Below are positions 15,385 to 24,827 of a stretch of 64,000 nt of DNA, piece after piece. Below the pieces are notes generated by a model that was not told the origin of the DNA, made no database searches, and saw nothing but the letters and a program-made list of their open reading frames with translations. The DNA is taken from contig NZ_KB903249.1 of assembly GCF_000379685.1 (NCBI RefSeq), positions 1 through 64,000 of the forward strand. The letters run 5' to 3'. Within the stretch, counting starts at the first letter, position 1, and each line of letters begins with the position of its first letter. The stretch is from Catelliglobosispora koreensis DSM 44566 (GTDB lineage: Bacteria; Actinomycetota; Actinomycetes; Mycobacteriales; Micromonosporaceae). The position numbers and the translations under genes were made by a program.

Positions 15385-16074
15385 TCAGGAGGGGAGGTTC
15401 ATCCCGAGCGCGGCTTCGAGGCCTCGCTGGCCGGCCGCGGTGACCCGGATCGCGCGGCCGGTGCCGATGCGCTCGATCCAGTCCAGCTCAAAGAAGCGCC
15501 CGCACAACGCGGCGCCGGCGAGCCCGGCGAGGTGCGGGCGGCGCTCTGTCCAATCCAGACAGTCCCGCACCAGTGGCCGGCGTCCGGCAGGCTCAAGCGA
15601 AATGCCCAGGCTCGCGAACCATTCGCGGCCAGCATCGCTCAAGGACAAGCCCCGATTCCGCTCGATGAGCCGCTGCGATTCGAGCGCTCCCAAAAGAGTC
15701 ACTCCGAAGCGCCCCGCCAAATGGTCATAACAGGTGCGCGCACGGGCGAGCGCCGCCATCGCGGTCGCTTCGCGCAGCGACGTGACACTTGCCGCTGGCG
15801 GACCGTCGGCGTAGGAGACCAGCTCCTCGATGAGATGCGCCGTCTCCGGGCTTGCCAGCCGCACATAACGGTGCCGCCCTTGGCGTTCCTCACTGAGCAG
15901 GCCGCCGTCAACGAGCAAGCTCAGGTGCTCACTGGCGGTCGATTTGCCGACGCCCGCGTGCTTGGCGAGTTCGCCGGAGGTCCACGCCCGGCCGTCCAGC
16001 AGTGCCAAGCAAAAGCTGGCCCGCGTGCTGTCGGCCAGCAGTCCCGCGAGCCGGGCCAGAGTTTGCGCGGTCAT
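15385..16074 (-). CDS. ArsR-family winged-helix regulator with C-terminal extension
   Basis: A 229-residue protein with an N-terminal winged helix (residues 1-85): LADSTRASFCLALLDGRAWT, GELAKHAGVGKSTASEHLSLL and the wing EERQGRHRYV. The C-terminal 130 residues are typical of the larger ArsR-type regulators of actinomycetes and include RDCLDWTERRPHLAGLAGA. No CxC metal site is seen, so metal sensing is unlikely. ATG 16074 overlaps the stop of the EamA permease (ATGA), so it probably regulates that permease and itself. Confidence 0.85.
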   Translation of the reverse strand: MTAQTLARLAGLLADSTRASFCLALLDGRAWTSGELAKHAGVGKSTASEHLSLLVDGGLLSEERQGRHRYVRLASPETAHLIEELVSYADGPPAASVTSLREATAMAALARARTCYDHLAGRFGVTLLGALESQRLIERNRGLSLSDAGREWFASLGISLEPAGRRPLVRDCLDWTERRPHLAGLAGAALCGRFFELDWIERIGTGRAIRVTAAGQRGLEAALGMNLPS

Positions 16075-16931
16075 GACTTCCTCCGGGCGAAGTAGACACC
16101 GGCCAAACACAGGGCACCGCCAACGAAAGCCAGCGGCGCGGGCGTCTCGCCGAGCAGCAGCCAGGCGATGAGAATGGCGACCGGTGACACGAGGAAGGTC
16201 GCGTTGCCCAGGCGCCCAGCCGTCGTGCGAGCCAAAGCGTAAGCCCACGTAGTGAACGCGACAGCGGTCGGCATCACCCCGAGGTAAACCACCGACCACA
16301 GGGCGTCCGGCGGCGCGGCACTGACCTCACGCACCAGCGTCGGTGTGAACGGAAGGCACACGATGGCGCCGATGACACAAGCGATCCACGTGATCGTCAA
16401 GCCCGGAAGGTCTGCCAGCAAAGGCTTCTGCAGCACCACAGACACCGCGTAGGCGACAGCGGCCACGACACACAGGAAGACACCCCACCAACTCGACGCT
16501 TGACCACCGCCCGTAGACAGTCCAATCAGGACGATGCCACTAAACGCGATCAGGCTGCCGAGCAGAAGGTTGCGCGGAAAGCCCTCTTTGAGGAATACCC
16601 CGGCGAGCAGGGCGATGAGAATCGGCCCGATGTTGACGAGCATGGCCGCTGTGCCCGCGTCGACCATCCGCTCAGCTTCGTTGAGAGCGACGTTGTAGAG
16701 CGCGAACCACAGCACACCGCACGCGATGAGCCGCGGCCAGTGCTGGCGCTGGGGCATGGCGCTGCGCTTGACGAGCACCATGGCGGTCAGCACCAGCGAG
16801 CCGACGAGGAGCCGGCCGAGGGCGAGGCTGCCCGCCGTGAACGCGTCGGCCAGATGCCGGATCGCCACAAAGGCCGACGCCCAGAGGACGACGGTGGTCA
16901 GCATCGCGGCTGTCGCTTTGGTTTCCTTCAC
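16071..16931 (-). CDS. EamA/DMT-family permease
   Basis: A 286-residue ten-helix transporter with two EamA repeats; motifs include LWASAFVAIR near the N terminus, the GI..IALLAGVFLKEGFPRN segment, and the final AWLLLGETPAPLAFVGGALCLAGV helix region containing the conserved G-E. Likely an exporter of a metabolite. GTG 16931 is 7 nt after a minus-strand TAGCGT box. First gene of a two-gene operon with the ArsR regulator. Confidence 0.9.
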   Translation of the reverse strand: MKETKATAAMLTTVVLWASAFVAIRHLADAFTAGSLALGRLLVGSLVLTAMVLVKRSAMPQRQHWPRLIACGVLWFALYNVALNEAERMVDAGTAAMLVNIGPILIALLAGVFLKEGFPRNLLLGSLIAFSGIVLIGLSTGGGQASSWWGVFLCVVAAVAYAVSVVLQKPLLADLPGLTITWIACVIGAIVCLPFTPTLVREVSAAPPDALWSVVYLGVMPTAVAFTTWAYALARTTAGRLGNATFLVSPVAILIAWLLLGETPAPLAFVGGALCLAGVYFARRKS

Positions 16932-16972: not shown

Positions 16973-18208
16973 CTACATCAGCTTGTTGGCCTTGAGGTAT
17001 TTGGCCAGTTCGTCATAAGAACCGCTCTCATTGGCAAACATCGCCACATTGCGGGCGGTCATGAGCCACTGGTTTGTGGAGGCCTTGATTTCCGTCAGCG
17101 CTTTCTCGAAGTCCCGCTGCTCGATCATGCGGATGTCGCCGCTGGTGACCGAGTCATGCATGGCGTATTCAGCGGCCGACTCGCACAGGTGGGCTAGATC
17201 GGCGCCACTGAAGTAAGCCGTCGCTCCCGCGAGGCGCCTGAGGTCGATGTTCGCGATCGGGCGCTGGCGCAGGTGATAGTCGAGGATCGCCATCCGGGCT
17301 GGTTCGTCAGGCGGGGCGACGAAGACCGTGCGGTCGAGCCGGCCCGGCCGGCGCAAAGCGGTGTCCACATCCCAAGGCGCGTTTGTCGCGGCCAGGATGA
17401 ACACGCCTTCGTTGGTTCCTTCCATGCCGTCAAGCTCAGCGAGCAGCTGGTTGCCCAGCGTTCGCATGGACGAGGACTGCATTTGGCTTCGCTTATAGCC
17501 CAGGGCATCGATCTCGTCGAGGAACAGCACGCAAGGAGCGTTGCGCCGGGCGGTCTCGAAAATCTGGTGCAGGTTGCGCTCGGACTCCCCGATCCACATG
17601 TTGAGCACGTCGACCAGTGAGATCGTGCCGAACTTCGCGCCCATCTCGCCGGCGACGGCCCGTGCCAGGAACGTCTTGCCGCACCCGGGAGGACCGTAAA
17701 GCAACAGCCCACCGCGCAAGCTCTTGCCATAGAGCTCGCGCAGTTTGGTGTTGCGCATCGGGGCGAGAAACGAAATCTCCAGCCGCTTCTTGACGTCTTC
17801 CATCCCGCCAACGTCACCGAGACGCACCGCCGACGGCTCGATGTCGAAAGCCCGGTCCTCTTCGCCCACAACAGGTTCCGGCTCATCTCCGGCCCGTGCG
17901 TAGCGCGGCGGCACCGAGTCGGCGAACTGTTCCTCCAAGGCTTTCCAATCCATCTGCACCGGTTCGGCCTGCCCCGGCTCGGGCCTGGATGTCACCGGCT
18001 CGGGGGCGGGACCTCCGAGTGCGGACTGCATCAGCCCTTGGGCACTGGCGTTCTGCGGGTCCTGCTGCAGCACGGTCGCCAAATGAGCGATGGACTCGGG
18101 GCCACGACCGGCGGCGATCAGCAGCTCAGCCAGGTGCAGGCGCAGCGGAACGTCAGCCGGGCGGTCCTGCACGGCGGCGAGGAGACTTTCGATGAGAGAC
18201 GCGCTCAT
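16973..18208 (-). CDS. TPR-AAA+ ATPase
   Basis: A 411-residue protein. Residues 1-65 form a TPR-like helical repeat (RLHLAELLIAAGRGPESIAHL), followed by an acidic, proline-rich linker to about 125 and a classical AAA+ module: Walker A GPPGCGKTFLAR, Walker B VLFLDEIDALG, SRH with ILAATNAPWDVD and arginine fingers RRPGRLDR, and a C-terminal helical lid (YFSGADLAHLCESAAEYAM). The module is closest to CDC48/FtsH-like classical AAA proteins, but no protease domain is attached. It probably remodels a partner bound by the TPR. It is divergent from a membrane protein and a TPR protein with which it shares a 24-bp promoter region. Function unknown. Confidence 0.85.
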   Translation of the reverse strand: MSASLIESLLAAVQDRPADVPLRLHLAELLIAAGRGPESIAHLATVLQQDPQNASAQGLMQSALGGPAPEPVTSRPEPGQAEPVQMDWKALEEQFADSVPPRYARAGDEPEPVVGEEDRAFDIEPSAVRLGDVGGMEDVKKRLEISFLAPMRNTKLRELYGKSLRGGLLLYGPPGCGKTFLARAVAGEMGAKFGTISLVDVLNMWIGESERNLHQIFETARRNAPCVLFLDEIDALGYKRSQMQSSSMRTLGNQLLAELDGMEGTNEGVFILAATNAPWDVDTALRRPGRLDRTVFVAPPDEPARMAILDYHLRQRPIANIDLRRLAGATAYFSGADLAHLCESAAEYAMHDSVTSGDIRMIEQRDFEKALTEIKASTNQWLMTARNVAMFANESGSYDELAKYLKANKLM

Positions 18209-18216
18209 GTTGAGCC

Positions 18217-18224
18217 ATTATGCT
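18217..18224. promoter_or_regulatory. Shared bidirectional promoter with superimposed -10 boxes
   Basis: Plus strand TATGCT (18219-18224) and minus strand CATAAT (18222-18217) overlap by four bases. Each lies 8 nt before a start codon: GTG 18233 on plus, ATG 18208 on minus. The whole intergenic region is 24 bp, so both genes must be transcribed from this one element, leaderless. Confidence 0.6.
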
Positions 18225-18232
18225 TGCCGCTC

Positions 18233-18664
18233 GTGACCGATGAGCTGTTCACCCCGACCATCAAGGACGCCAAGGTGCCGACGCGGCCACCATGGAATCC
18301 AGATTCGATCATCTATCCGGCTTTCTTCGGCGGTCCGCTGGCGGGCTCGGTCCTCGGCTTCCTCAATGGGCGCAAGCTTTTGCTGAGCCGTTCTCACCTG
18401 CTACTCATCGCGGGGACGGGCACCGTGGCGTTCGCCGCGCGCGCCGCTCTGACGGCGACCGTTCTCCCCAGCTATGCACGCAGCATTGTGGCGGCGATCG
18501 CCGGCGTCGTGGTGTGGCTTGTCGTGGCGGCGTTGCAGCGCAAGGCTTTCCGCGCCGCCATTCAAAACGGGCGTGACGCGGTCAGTCTCGTCGGCCCAGG
18601 CATCGCCGCGTCCATCGGCTTCGGCGTCCTCGAATTCGCCTTCATTTACGGAGTGCTGCTATGA
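18233..18664 (+). CDS. Membrane protein of unknown function in the TPR-AAA module
   Basis: A 143-residue protein with an N-terminal cytoplasmic stretch (KVPTRPPWNPD) and four predicted hydrophobic segments at about 28-45, 57-75, 82-101 and 123-143. GTG 18233 is set by the neighbouring promoter; longer upstream frames would overlap the divergent ATPase gene. It overlaps the TPR gene by 4 bp (ATGA). No known family recognised. Co-regulation with the ATPase suggests it is a membrane docking partner, but that is inference. Confidence 0.7.
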   Translation: MTDELFTPTIKDAKVPTRPPWNPDSIIYPAFFGGPLAGSVLGFLNGRKLLLSRSHLLLIAGTGTVAFAARAALTATVLPSYARSIVAAIAGVVVWLVVAALQRKAFRAAIQNGRDAVSLVGPGIAASIGFGVLEFAFIYGVLL

Positions 18665-19530
18665 GTGGTATCGGGTTGAAGCGGGCACAGGCGCTGCTGA
18701 TGGCGGACCGTCCACAGGAGGCGCTGCGTGAGCTAGCGACCCTGTCGGCTGAAGAAGCCATGCACCCCGGTGCTTTCTATCTGCGTGCGGCTGCTTTCTC
18801 CCAGCTCGACCAGCATGCCGAAACTGTCACCGCGGCACGGCAGGGCCTCGAAGCGGGCGGGCCGGACCCGGATCTGTTCCAGCTGATCGGTGACGCGGAA
18901 CGCCAGCAAGGACATTTGGAGGCGGCCGAGCAAGCGCTCCTAAGTGGACTGTCACTCGCGCCGAATCACCTGGGCCTGCTGTGTTCCTACGCCGCGGCCT
19001 GCATGGCGGCCAATCAGCTCGGCAAAGCGGCCAAGCTCGTGGAACGGGCAGCGGCACAAGCGCCCACGGCCGCGGCTGTTTATGCGATCCGCATTCAGCT
19101 CGCGTACACCCGAGGGGAAGACCGCAAGGCCCAGGAGATCGCCCGTGAATTCGTCGCCGAGTATCCGGAGAGTGCCGCCGCCCACGCGTTGCTTGGCGGG
19201 ACTAGCGCCAATCGCGGCCAGGTGCGGGAGGCTGACGCTGGCGCGCGCCAGGCGGTCGCGGCCGATCCCACGGTTGGCGACTACGCCGAACTGGCGCTCG
19301 AGACGCGGATCGCCCGGCATCCGCTCATGACACCGGTCCGGCCCTTCATTCGGTTCGGGCCAATAAAGACCTGGATCGCCGCCATTGCCATCATTTACGG
19401 GCTTCGAATGCTGAAGATGCCGATGCTCGCGGGGGTCTTCGCCATCGGCTGGTTCCTTCTTTGCGTGTACTCATGGGTCGTCCCGCCCCTGGTCAGGCGC
19501 TGGATGAAACGGCGATACCGCGCCTTCTAG
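18661..19530 (+). CDS. TPR-repeat protein with C-terminal membrane anchor
   Basis: A 289-residue protein made of five to six tetratricopeptide repeats (about residues 1-215), with typical A-L-P spacing (LLMADRPQEALRELATL, LFQLIGDAERQQGHLEAAEQA). The last 60 residues contain two hydrophobic helices separated by a short KMPM loop, ending in the basic sequence RRWMKRRYRAF, so it should be tail-anchored with the repeats in the cytoplasm. ATG 18661 overlaps the preceding stop. With the TPR-AAA ATPase this gives two TPR proteins and one more membrane protein in one module. Confidence 0.8.
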   Translation: MSGIGLKRAQALLMADRPQEALRELATLSAEEAMHPGAFYLRAAAFSQLDQHAETVTAARQGLEAGGPDPDLFQLIGDAERQQGHLEAAEQALLSGLSLAPNHLGLLCSYAAACMAANQLGKAAKLVERAAAQAPTAAAVYAIRIQLAYTRGEDRKAQEIAREFVAEYPESAAAHALLGGTSANRGQVREADAGARQAVAADPTVGDYAELALETRIARHPLMTPVRPFIRFGPIKTWIAAIAIIYGLRMLKMPMLAGVFAIGWFLLCVYSWVVPPLVRRWMKRRYRAF

Positions 19531-19550: not shown

Positions 19551-19578
19551 CCCCTTGCAAAGACTTCTTTGCAAGGGG
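19551..19578. promoter_or_regulatory. Perfect 12-bp inverted repeat, operator of the ArsR/MFS operon
   Basis: CCCCTTGCAAAG (19551-19562) and CTTTGCAAGGGG (19567-19578) are exact complements around ACTT. The left arm contains the probable -35 (TTGCAA 19555-19560) and the right arm ends next to the -10 TACGTT, so a bound dimer would block the promoter. A further TTGCAA at 19583-19588 may be a third half-site. Confidence 0.8.
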
Positions 19579-19584
19579 TACGTT
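19579..19584 (+). promoter_or_regulatory. -10 box TACGTT, leaderless start for 19591
   Basis: TACGTT, 6 nt (GCAAAC), ATG 19591; 18 bp after TTGCAA at 19555-19560. Confidence 0.6.
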
Positions 19585-19590
19585 GCAAAC

Positions 19591-20151
19591 ATGTCTAGGG
19601 AAGTTCGTCTTACCGCTGCGTCCCTGCGCGGCCTAGCGCACCCGCTGCGCGTCCGCATCCTGGGTCTCCTCCGCGCGAACGGTCCGGCCACCTCGACCAC
19701 GCTGGCGCTGGCGCTCGGGCAGAGCACGGGCACGACCAGTTATCACCTGCGCCAGCTCGCCGCGCACGGCTTCATCGTCGACGACGAGGAGCTCGGGGCC
19801 GGCCGTGAGCGCTGGTGGAAAGCGGCGCACCAAAGGACCACCTTCGATACGTCTGACCTACCCGATATCGATCCCGCCGACGTGGTGGCTTACATGCGCG
19901 CCGTCGCGGCGTCCTATGCCGACAATGTCGACCGCTGGCTCAACGAGACGTATACGGGACCGTGGCGTGATGTGGGAACGCTCAGCGACTGGCGGCTAAA
20001 GCTCACCCGCGCCGAAACCGAGGAACTGCAAGCGGCCATCTTCGAGCTCGCTAGCCGTTATCGCCGCTATGACGCCGAAGAAGCGCCCGAAGACGCCCAG
20101 CCCGTGAGCCTTCAGGTGCAGGTTATGCCGTTCGTGCAGGAGGCGGAGTGA
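19591..20151 (+). CDS. ArsR/HTH_20-type transcriptional regulator
   Basis: A 186-residue regulator. Residues 5-85 form a winged helix: LRGLAHPLRVRILGLLRANG, then ATSTTLALALGQSTGTTSYHLRQLAAHG and the wing ELGAGRERWWKA, as in the HTH_20 regulators that sit beside MFS transporters in actinobacteria. The C-terminal half (ADNVDRWLNETYTGPW) is typical of that group and binds an unknown ligand. It begins just behind a strong palindrome and is coupled to the MFS gene by TGATG, so it is probably an autorepressor that also controls the exporter. Confidence 0.88.
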   Translation: MSREVRLTAASLRGLAHPLRVRILGLLRANGPATSTTLALALGQSTGTTSYHLRQLAAHGFIVDDEELGAGRERWWKAAHQRTTFDTSDLPDIDPADVVAYMRAVAASYADNVDRWLNETYTGPWRDVGTLSDWRLKLTRAETEELQAAIFELASRYRRYDAEEAPEDAQPVSLQVQVMPFVQEAE

Positions 20152-22391: not shown

Positions 22392-22586
22392 AGTGCCGCC
22401 ACTCTAACCCACAAAGTTGATGTTTCCTCGCCGTAAATAACGATGTCAATTCTTAAGAATATATGCATCTCACGATGGCTCAGCGGCTATGTCATCAAGG
22501 TTTATGAATATTCCATATTCTTTCGAACTTCGATATACATCCGCCCAGTGGCTACCGCCACGTTTTGTGCAAGGGGAGGAATCACA
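22392..22586 (+). promoter_or_regulatory. AT-rich regulatory region upstream of the secreted protease
   Basis: A 195-bp non-coding stretch clearly richer in A+T than its surroundings. It contains perfect palindromes ATTCTTAAGAAT (22449-22460) and GAATATTC (22506-22513), and ends in the ribosome site GGGGAGGA (22573-22580) six nt before GTG 22587. It probably carries the protease promoter, a long 5' leader and a regulator site. Confidence 0.55.
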
Positions 22587-24827
22587 GTGAGAAAACCGAT
22601 CGCGATCGCCAGTATCGCGCTCGTCGCCGGCACCTATCTGGTGCTGACGGCGGGAGCGGGTGCGGCTGCACCGGATCCGGCACACACTGCCGTGTCCCGC
22701 GCAGAAGCAGCGCTGGCAGCTCACGGCGCGGATGTAAGGGCGGCCGCCGGTGAGACCTACGTGGTCAGCCGGTCCAAAGTGGACGCTAACGGTGCGTCCC
22801 ACGTTAAGTACGACCGGACCTACAAGGGCCTGCGCGTGTACGGTGGCGATTTCGTCATCCACACCAAGGCTGACGGCTCCTACGATGGCGCGTCCAACGG
22901 CCTCATCTCGCCGCTGACGCTCAGCACCACCCCCGCCATCAGTGGTGCCAAAGCGGTTCAGCTCGCCAAGGCGGCTTTCGAAGGCACCATCACCGAAAGC
23001 GGAGCCCCGGAACTGTTCGTGGACGCGAGCCAGGGAATTGGCCGCCTCGCCCACGAGACGGTTGTGAAGGGCTGGCTGGCTGACGGGCAGACCCCATCCG
23101 TGCTGCACGTGATCACTGACGCCAACACCGGTGCCCTCATCGGCTCGTTCGACGAGATCGAGACCGTCAACGGCACTGGCAACAGCGTCTACTCCGGCAC
23201 GGTCACCATCGACACGACGCTGTCCGGCAGCACGTACACGATGATTGACCCGTCGCACGGCAACGGCCGTACTTGCGACATGAACAACGGTACGTCGACG
23301 TGCACCAACTTCACCGACGCCGACAACACCTGGGGCAACGGTTCCAACAGCAACCGTCAGTCCGCCGGTGTCGACGCGCACTTCGGTGCGGCCAAGACGT
23401 TCGACTACTTCAAGCTCGTCCACGGCCGCAACGGCATCTTCGGCAACGGCCAGGGTGTCCCCAGCCGCGTGCACTACGGCAACGCCTATGTGAACGCGTT
23501 CTGGGACGGCGCGCAGATGACCTACGGTGACGGATCCGGCAACGCGAAGCCGCTCGTTTCGATCGACGTGGCCGGCCACGAGATGTCGCACGGCGTCACC
23601 GAAGCCCTCGCGGGCTTGGTCTACTCCGGAGAGTCCGGCGGCCTGAACGAGGCCACCAGTGACATCTTCGGCAACATGGTGGAGTTCTACGCCAACACCT
23701 CCGCTGACCCTGGCGACTACGATGTCGGCGAAAAGATCGACATCCGTGGCAACGGAACCCCACTGCGCTACATGTACAACCCGTCGCTGGACGGCTCGTC
23801 GCACAGCTGCTGGTCCACCAGCACCAACAGTGTCGACGTGCACTACTCCTCGGGCGTTGGCAACCACTTCTTCTTCAACCTGGCTGAAGGCTCAGGCGCC
23901 ACGCCGTATGGCACCAGCCCGCTTTGCGGGTCGGCACCGGCCGTCGTTGGCATCGGCCGCGCCAAGGCTGAGAAGATCTGGTACCGCGCGCTGGACGTGT
24001 ACTTCACCTCCAGCACCCGTTACGTTCTGACGTCCAACCCGGCCAACACGTCGCGTGCCTACACGCTGCGTGCCGCGACCGACCTTTATGGACTGTGCTC
24101 GGCTGAGTACAAGACCGTTCAGGCCGCGTGGACCTCGGTGAACGTCGCGGGCAGCGACACCGCTTGCCCGACCGGCAACGACTTCTCGCTCGCGGCTTCG
24201 CCCGCCAGCGGTGCGGTCAACCCGGGCAGCTCCATCAGCACCACGGTGACGGCGACGCTGACCAACGGCTCGGCCCAGACGGTCAACTTGACCGCCTCTG
24301 GCCTGCCGAGTGGCGCCACCGCGACCTTCAGCCCCACCTCGATCACGTCAGCCGGCGGAACCTCGACCCTGACGATCGCCACTAGCGCCTCCACCCCGGC
24401 GGGCACCTTCGCGGTGACCATCACGGGCACGGGCGCCAGCGCCACCCGTTCCACCACGTTCAGCCTGACCGTGAACGGTGCGCCTGGTTGCACCGGCACC
24501 AACGGCAACGACGTGGCTATCCCGGACAACACGACGGTGACTAGCACGATCACCATCTCCGGTTGCAACAGGAACGCCTCGGCCACCAGCTCGATCTCGG
24601 TGACGATCTACCACACCTACCGTGGTGACCTCGTCGTCGATCTCGTCGCGCCGGATGGCTCGGTCTACAACCTGAGCAACCGTGCTGGCGGTAGCGCTGA
24701 CAACCTCATCGCCACCTACAGCCGGAACCTGTCGACCGAAGCCGCCAACGGCACCTGGACCCTGCGGGTCCGTGACGCGGCCACCATCGACACCGGCCGT
24801 ATCGACACCTGGTCACTGACGCTCTAA
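22587..24827 (+). CDS. Secreted M4 (thermolysin-family) metalloprotease with Ig-like and P-domain tail
   Basis: A 746-residue secreted zymogen. In order: signal peptide (about 1-30, ending GAAAAP); FTP/PepSY propeptide (about 35-190, with YKGLRVYGGDFVIH); M4 catalytic domain with zinc site GHEMSHGVTE and the third ligand in GGLNEATSD; M4 C-terminal domain with the DVHYSSGVGNHFF substrate-site segment; a Ser/Thr-rich NEW3/Ig-like domain (FSLAASPASGAVNPGS onward); and a C-terminal P/Homo-B domain (YRGDLVVDLVAPDGSVYNL to WSLTL). GTG 22587 is chosen because it follows a strong ribosome site and begins the signal peptide; the frame upstream is AT-rich leader. Role: extracellular protein degradation. 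Confidence 0.95.
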   Translation: MRKPIAIASIALVAGTYLVLTAGAGAAAPDPAHTAVSRAEAALAAHGADVRAAAGETYVVSRSKVDANGASHVKYDRTYKGLRVYGGDFVIHTKADGSYDGASNGLISPLTLSTTPAISGAKAVQLAKAAFEGTITESGAPELFVDASQGIGRLAHETVVKGWLADGQTPSVLHVITDANTGALIGSFDEIETVNGTGNSVYSGTVTIDTTLSGSTYTMIDPSHGNGRTCDMNNGTSTCTNFTDADNTWGNGSNSNRQSAGVDAHFGAAKTFDYFKLVHGRNGIFGNGQGVPSRVHYGNAYVNAFWDGAQMTYGDGSGNAKPLVSIDVAGHEMSHGVTEALAGLVYSGESGGLNEATSDIFGNMVEFYANTSADPGDYDVGEKIDIRGNGTPLRYMYNPSLDGSSHSCWSTSTNSVDVHYSSGVGNHFFFNLAEGSGATPYGTSPLCGSAPAVVGIGRAKAEKIWYRALDVYFTSSTRYVLTSNPANTSRAYTLRAATDLYGLCSAEYKTVQAAWTSVNVAGSDTACPTGNDFSLAASPASGAVNPGSSISTTVTATLTNGSAQTVNLTASGLPSGATATFSPTSITSAGGTSTLTIATSASTPAGTFAVTITGTGASATRSTTFSLTVNGAPGCTGTNGNDVAIPDNTTVTSTITISGCNRNASATSSISVTIYHTYRGDLVVDLVAPDGSVYNLSNRAGGSADNLIATYSRNLSTEAANGTWTLRVRDAATIDTGRIDTWSLTL

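Follow-up and report, generated by a model that had tools for sequence, protein, structure and literature searches.

A single-ring TPR-AAA ATPase of Actinomycetota and its TPR-membrane protein partners: a candidate membrane-docked motor

Three genes occupy positions 16973-19530 of the window, by which we mean the whole 64,000-nucleotide stretch of DNA that was analyzed. The first (16973..18208, minus strand) encodes a TPR-AAA ATPase of 411 aa that was defined by its open reading frame, Pfam matches and alignments, with the N-terminal TPR encoded at 18026..18178 on the same strand (Pfam TPR_19, 32.9 bits). Divergent from it on the plus strand are a gene with a GTG start at 18233 for a small membrane protein of 143 aa (cluster c20; 18233..18664), assigned from hydrophobicity and a model, and a gene for a TPR protein of 289 aa with a C-terminal membrane hairpin (cluster c21; 18661..19530), assigned from Pfam and a model. 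The c20 stop and the c21 start overlap by 4 bp (ATGA). As an earlier note on this DNA had claimed, all three reading frames are open and coding, and their products are kept as proteins across genera, so the trio is not a chance assembly of open frames. Two ArsR-type HTH_20 regulators (15385-16299, minus; 19555-20151, plus) flank the region that contains an EamA transporter and the trio, and the second of these precedes an MFS transporter gene with an overlap of a few bases. Elsewhere in the window, a 794-aa open reading frame with a HEMSH zinc motif (22443-24827, plus) apparently encodes a secreted thermolysin-like metalloprotease that carries a proprotein-convertase-like domain at its C-terminus.

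A gap of 24 bp (18209..18232), earlier described as one shared promoter region, lies between the start codon of the ATPase and the GTG of c20. The length of the gap is correct, but the region is better described as a predicted divergent promoter composed of two overlapping -10 elements, with CATAAT serving the ATPase (minus strand, 18222-18217) and TATGCT serving c20 (plus strand, 18219-18224), each about 8 nt ahead of its start codon; the strand opposite the ATPase-side -10 bases reads TATGCT. Because both elements end at this distance from the start codons, leaderless transcripts are likely, and such mRNAs are common in actinobacteria. The locus would thus probably produce two transcripts, both leaderless, from one overlapping promoter; a sigma-70 scan of the region found no consensus promoter. 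The sequence CATAATGG lies immediately 5' of the ATPase start in 10 of 10 loci with the divergent trio, Ruania among them. At the ATPase -10 position, Actinoplanes-type loci have CATAATCG and Micromonospora loci have TACGCT. The membrane protein starts about 45-150 bp from the ATPase in the remaining nine trio loci, which makes the very short gap specific to the window. Several c20-c21 cassettes that are unlinked to the ATPase retain CATTATGCTGTGCCGG, as if they had been excised from an earlier divergent trio.

The ATPase comprises one TPR unit (TPR_19, residues 11-61), a variable linker, a single CDC48-D2-like AAA module with its lid (residues ~124-380; Pfam AAA at 168-297 with 142.9 bits and AAA_lid_3 at 320-368) and a conserved C-terminal tail (376-411). 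Its motifs include Walker A (GPPGCGKT), Walker B (FLDEID), a pore loop (MWIGES) and arginine fingers in ALRRPGRLDR, and alignments of 23-87 orthologues show that Walker A and B, the arginine fingers and an aromatic GESE-type pore loop are kept. With the motor motifs intact across the family, the motor is expected to be active. The ATPase has zero hydrophobic segments, as opposed to four in c20 and two near the C-terminus of c21, and the Pfam search found no peptidase domain in it. The best PDB matches are p97/CDC48. Pfam, motifs and scores are therefore in agreement with the earlier description of an ATPase that has its own TPR and a CDC48/FtsH-like core without a protease. Full-length orthologues are 44-75% identical, TPR included, and the N-terminal TPR is retained in nearly all members of the family. 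Among 41 relatives, family members score at least 248 bits and all others at most 176, the exception being a copy that is divided between two contigs. The closest paralogue of the ATPase is the second AAA ring (D2) of Cpa, which gives 226-248 bits with the family profile. Curated NCBIfam models gave 211.2 bits for CDC48 (cut-off 802.65), 204.3 bits over residues 122-378 for FtsH (cut-off 600), 108-112 bits (111.7) for IetA (cut-off 510) and 29.8 bits for EccA (cut-off 466.65), and since all of these are far under the cut-offs the ATPase is filed in none of the four families. A family member is defined here by a full-length match that includes the TPR and by a TPR-membrane partner in the genome; the window ATPase has both, with c21 as the adjacent partner. 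The motor is of a known kind, in an arrangement that is new.

For the families of the partner proteins, Pfam describes nothing beyond the TPRs. The four hydrophobic segments of c20 and a model of four to five long helices (pLDDT 80) bear out its earlier description as a four-helix protein. Its N-terminus (M.D[DE]LF.PT) and the segment PPWRP..I.YPAFFGGPLA are conserved, no Pfam family matched it, and a fold search of the model against the PDB gave nothing below E = 4.6. The c20 protein accompanies c21 only, except for one lone homologue near ftsY and smc (L175 6664-7098, minus) in a genome, G022, that has neither c21 nor the ATPase, a location that may hint at a tie to membrane-protein biogenesis. 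The c21 protein has TPR_14/TPR_19 matches in Pfam, and its model (pLDDT 87) consists of stacked helix pairs, which resemble known TPR superhelices over the TPR part in a fold search, followed by two long C-terminal helices. The C-terminal membrane anchor that had been proposed for c21 is thus present, but it is a two-helix hairpin and not the single helix of a classical tail anchor. Under the positive-inside rule, positively charged ends lie on the cytosolic side, and because the C-terminal end of c21 is rich in arginine and lysine both ends of the protein are predicted to be cytosolic. A second subfamily of TPR-membrane proteins, c1, has members of about 340-400 aa in which the TPRs are followed by about three to four hydrophobic segments. 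An hhalign comparison of c1 with c21 gave a probability of 99 and E 1e-19 over residues ~3-213 only, i.e. the TPR part, and as TPRs are easily alike this match is no proof of common descent.

Gene neighborhoods were compared for 94 ATPase loci, a few of which are the same genome counted twice, with genes called by a simple GC-position script. A c1 gene is near the ATPase in 60 of these loci, a divergent c20-c21 pair of the window type in 10 and neither of them in 24. Where c1 is directly downstream on the same strand (n=48), it overlaps the ATPase stop by exactly 4 bp in 30 cases. What forms the conserved core is the pairing of the ATPase with a TPR-membrane protein, in most cases from the c1 subfamily and mostly downstream in one operon. 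The earlier idea that the three genes act together holds with regard to membrane partners, conservation and co-occurrence, but not for the divergent trio as the unit, which is confined to the ten loci. The ten trio members form one group on the ATPase tree, where Rugosimonospora alone is unresolved among them; this indicates a derived origin of the divergent layout.

The ATPase family extends across the Actinomycetota yet is patchy, being present in 9 of 396 genomes of the phylum. The ATPase-c1 pair is also found in other classes of the phylum, on linear plasmids of Streptomyces and on an Actinomyces oris plasmid, and no instance was found in phage records. NCBI independently annotates the plasmid pairs as "AAA family ATPase/ATP-binding protein" and "tetratricopeptide repeat protein" with a 4-bp overlap. 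The Actinomyces oris pair (NZ_CP116225.1, a 415-kb record labelled plasmid; L249 890-8456) is a few genes from dnaK-grpE. Within Micromonospora the ATPase is beside ddlA, at the ddlA/thiL site, in 25 of 25 ATPase-positive loci examined, and many genomes of this genus have the ATPase with neither adaptor adjoining. Actinoplanes utahensis (G447) has a first ATPase copy that is partnerless nearby and a second copy elsewhere with its own c1 (L126 / L146 8526-10948, minus). The ATPase itself follows ispD-ispF in three loci from other families (L008, L010 and L014); the claim of an ancestral ispD-ispF-ATPase-TPR operon drawn from them was withdrawn, as sampling is too thin. In Micromonospora a stand-alone c1-type gene occurs right after carD-ispD-ispF, whether or not the genome has the ATPase (L141 7378-8403; L144 7334-8359). 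Its presence in genomes that have no ATPase indicates that the c1 family has other roles, and this gene was dropped as a dedicated in-trans partner because ATPase-negative species keep it too.

Presence of c20, c21 and c1 across genomes was set by profile cut-offs, in draft genomes that vary in completeness. In the family to which the window belongs, 151 genomes were compared: 56 have the ATPase, 16 have c21 and 17 have c20. The c21 gene occurs in 16 of the 56 ATPase-positive genomes versus 0 of the 95 ATPase-negative ones (Fisher p = 3e-8), c20 adjoins it in 16 of 16, and in 7 of 16 the cassette is unlinked to the ATPase. In one genus the unlinked cassettes mostly occur alongside an ATPase that is already paired with c1. 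An analysis of 160 Micromonospora genomes found the ATPase in 39 and c21 in 24, with c21 in 23 of 39 ATPase-positive genomes versus 1 of 121 ATPase-negative genomes (p = 2e-16, with counts that take species as independent). Unlinked c21 genes in Micromonospora lie roughly 340-520 kb from the ATPase where one contig holds both. The sole ATPase-negative carrier, a fragmented draft (G685), has a frameshifted c21 with an open c20 upstream (L225 6617-7463), the frameshift being either gene decay or an assembly error. No c21 turned up among 395 further genomes sampled from the phylum.

Within Micromonospora c21 has been gained or lost at least four times, against a constant site of the ATPase (25 loci). 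A species tree built from the conserved ispD-ispF-carD region of 24 species that cover both states shows at least three changes of the ATPase on well-supported branches; independent pairs on this tree gave 2 that agree, 0 that disagree and 1 tie, too few for a significant sign test. The co-occurrence that the earlier note proposed as a check is thus found between c21 and the ATPase in 16 of 16 carriers of the family and in 23 of 24 Micromonospora carriers, but adjacency of the whole trio extends to just 10 of the 94 loci. Together these results are good, if not conclusive, evidence of a one-way dependence, in which c20-c21 requires the ATPase but the ATPase can do without c20-c21.

We propose that these proteins constitute a membrane-docked protein-threading motor with exchangeable TPR adaptors that would work like Pex1/Pex6 with Pex15, a model to which we assign an even chance of being correct. 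The membrane-tethered remodeling machine suggested in the earlier note likewise has the standing of a hypothesis. The model is built on the linkage to c1 with its 4-bp overlaps, the in-trans co-occurrence of c21, the conserved motor motifs, membrane segments that are absent from the ATPase and present in its partners, and the precedent of Pex15, a tail-anchored, all-helical protein that recruits the threading motor Pex1/Pex6 (PMC5762779). The ATPase would be a single-ring AAA+ unfoldase or segregase, presumably hexameric, that docks at the inner surface of the cell membrane through a C-terminally membrane-anchored TPR protein with a predicted cytosolic orientation. The short TPR of the ATPase may dock on, or stack with, the TPR array of the adaptor, after which the aromatic pore loop would thread, unfold or extract clients, or take complexes apart, at the membrane with no attached protease. 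The common adaptor would be of the c1 type encoded directly downstream of the ATPase, and c21 with c20 would form a second, exchangeable adaptor that may choose other clients.

A broader reading is that actinobacteria have a membrane-recruited protein-extraction machine of their own, on a plan similar to Pex1/Pex6-Pex15, in which one single-ring ATPase is served by c1 and c21-c20 adaptors for different membrane clients, sometimes with two adaptors per genome; we offer this extension only tentatively. Bacterial membrane-protein quality control is mainly ascribed to FtsH and a few proteases, and AAA factors of the Msp1 and Pex1/Pex6 type, which extract proteins without a protease, are mainly a eukaryotic finding. 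If the reading is true, extraction from bacterial membranes by a motor that adaptors recruit could be tested directly in culturable Micromonospora, Actinoplanes and Streptomyces. The open-access literature that was searched holds no paper on this TPR-AAA ATPase family, and the earlier statement that the trio has no described function stands in that literature.

Several other explanations bear on the same observations. The TPR-membrane proteins could be substrates or regulated assemblies that the ATPase removes or disassembles, rather than its adaptors. Operon linkage, gene overlap and the dependence of c21 on the ATPase fit such dedicated clients equally well, and Pex15 itself not only recruits Pex1/Pex6 but is also one of its substrates (PMC5762779). 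This alternative is nevertheless unlikely in our view, as almost every family member keeps the N-terminal TPR of the ATPase, which fits docking, and c1 and c21 join differing membrane regions to a similar TPR array, as adaptors would.

Even less probable is a role in anti-phage defense, in which the AAA ATPase would sense or execute and the TPR-membrane protein would harm the membrane. A patchy spread (9 of 396 phylum genomes), the presence on plasmids and the distant relationship to AAA defense ATPases of the IetA type are all consistent with defense. Against it are the IetA score of 108-112 bits relative to the cut-off of 510, the lack of a protease partner, the failure of either partner to match a strong PADLOC model, and a fixed housekeeping site (ddlA/thiL in Micromonospora, after ispD-ispF in some other families) with no islands. 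We give equally little weight to a chaperone of secretion or of the cell envelope like EccA of type VII secretion, a TPR-AAA protein that would handle substrates of a membrane complex: the TPR plus AAA architecture beside membrane proteins is suggestive, but the EccA model scored far below its cut-off, and no secretion or ESX genes were noticed in the neighborhoods, where most neighbors are without family-search annotation. Incidental pairing of functionally unrelated genes on a shared promoter, for which the rarity of the exact divergent layout (10 of 94 loci) and the close relationship of the ten trio ATPases could be cited, is similarly improbable and already largely contradicted, as c20-c21 tracks the ATPase across genomes even at 340-520 kb and the 4-bp overlap of the commoner ATPase-c1 pair recurs in many genera.

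The proposed membrane-docked motor shares features with several known systems while belonging to none of those that were considered. IetAS has an AAA ATPase of one broad class with the trio ATPase (111.7 bits) but works with a protease partner where the trio has TPR and membrane proteins, and membership was rejected on both the score and the absent protease. EccA likewise has a TPR followed by AAA and has membrane partners, but its AAA domain is of another class and membership was rejected on its 29.8 bits. FtsH is alike in its AAA core (204 bits over residues 122-378), but the trio ATPase has neither N-terminal membrane helices nor a zinc-protease domain, and with no peptidase domain, no hydrophobic segment and a score of 204.3 versus 600 bits it was not accepted as an FtsH. 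Msp1/ATAD1 is similar in its single AAA module, its lack of a protease and the action at the membrane proposed for the trio ATPase. Msp1, however, has its own N-terminal anchor helix, whereas the trio ATPase has no hydrophobic segment, on which membership was rejected, and would depend on an adaptor.

Two further comparisons are with Cpa and with the peroxisomal motor. Cpa is a Cdc48-like protein of actinobacteria described in a study in which TPR proteins are unmentioned (PMC6017811). Its second AAA ring is nearest to the trio ATPase by sequence (226-248 bits), and the latter has a D2-like core by its motifs and its p97/CDC48 matches in the PDB. In Cpa, with open frames of 739-773 aa, an N-domain is followed by two AAA rings, in contrast to one ring in the 411 aa of the trio ATPase, where a TPR replaces the N-domain and first ring and TPR-membrane proteins are encoded alongside. 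Membership in Cdc48/p97/Cpa was rejected given the single AAA module and the CDC48 score of 211.2 versus 802.65. Pex1/Pex6 with Pex15/Pex26 pairs a threading AAA motor with a separate, all-helical, C-terminally anchored recruiter (PMC5762779), an arrangement that the trio would resemble if the predicted binding between its proteins occurs. The peroxisomal motor is a double-ring heterohexamer, unlike the trio ATPase, which has just one AAA module, a TPR of its own and bacterial adaptors and for which each locus has one gene. Pex1/Pex6-Pex15 is best used as a working analogy for how the ATPase may be brought to the membrane, and not as a family to which it belongs.
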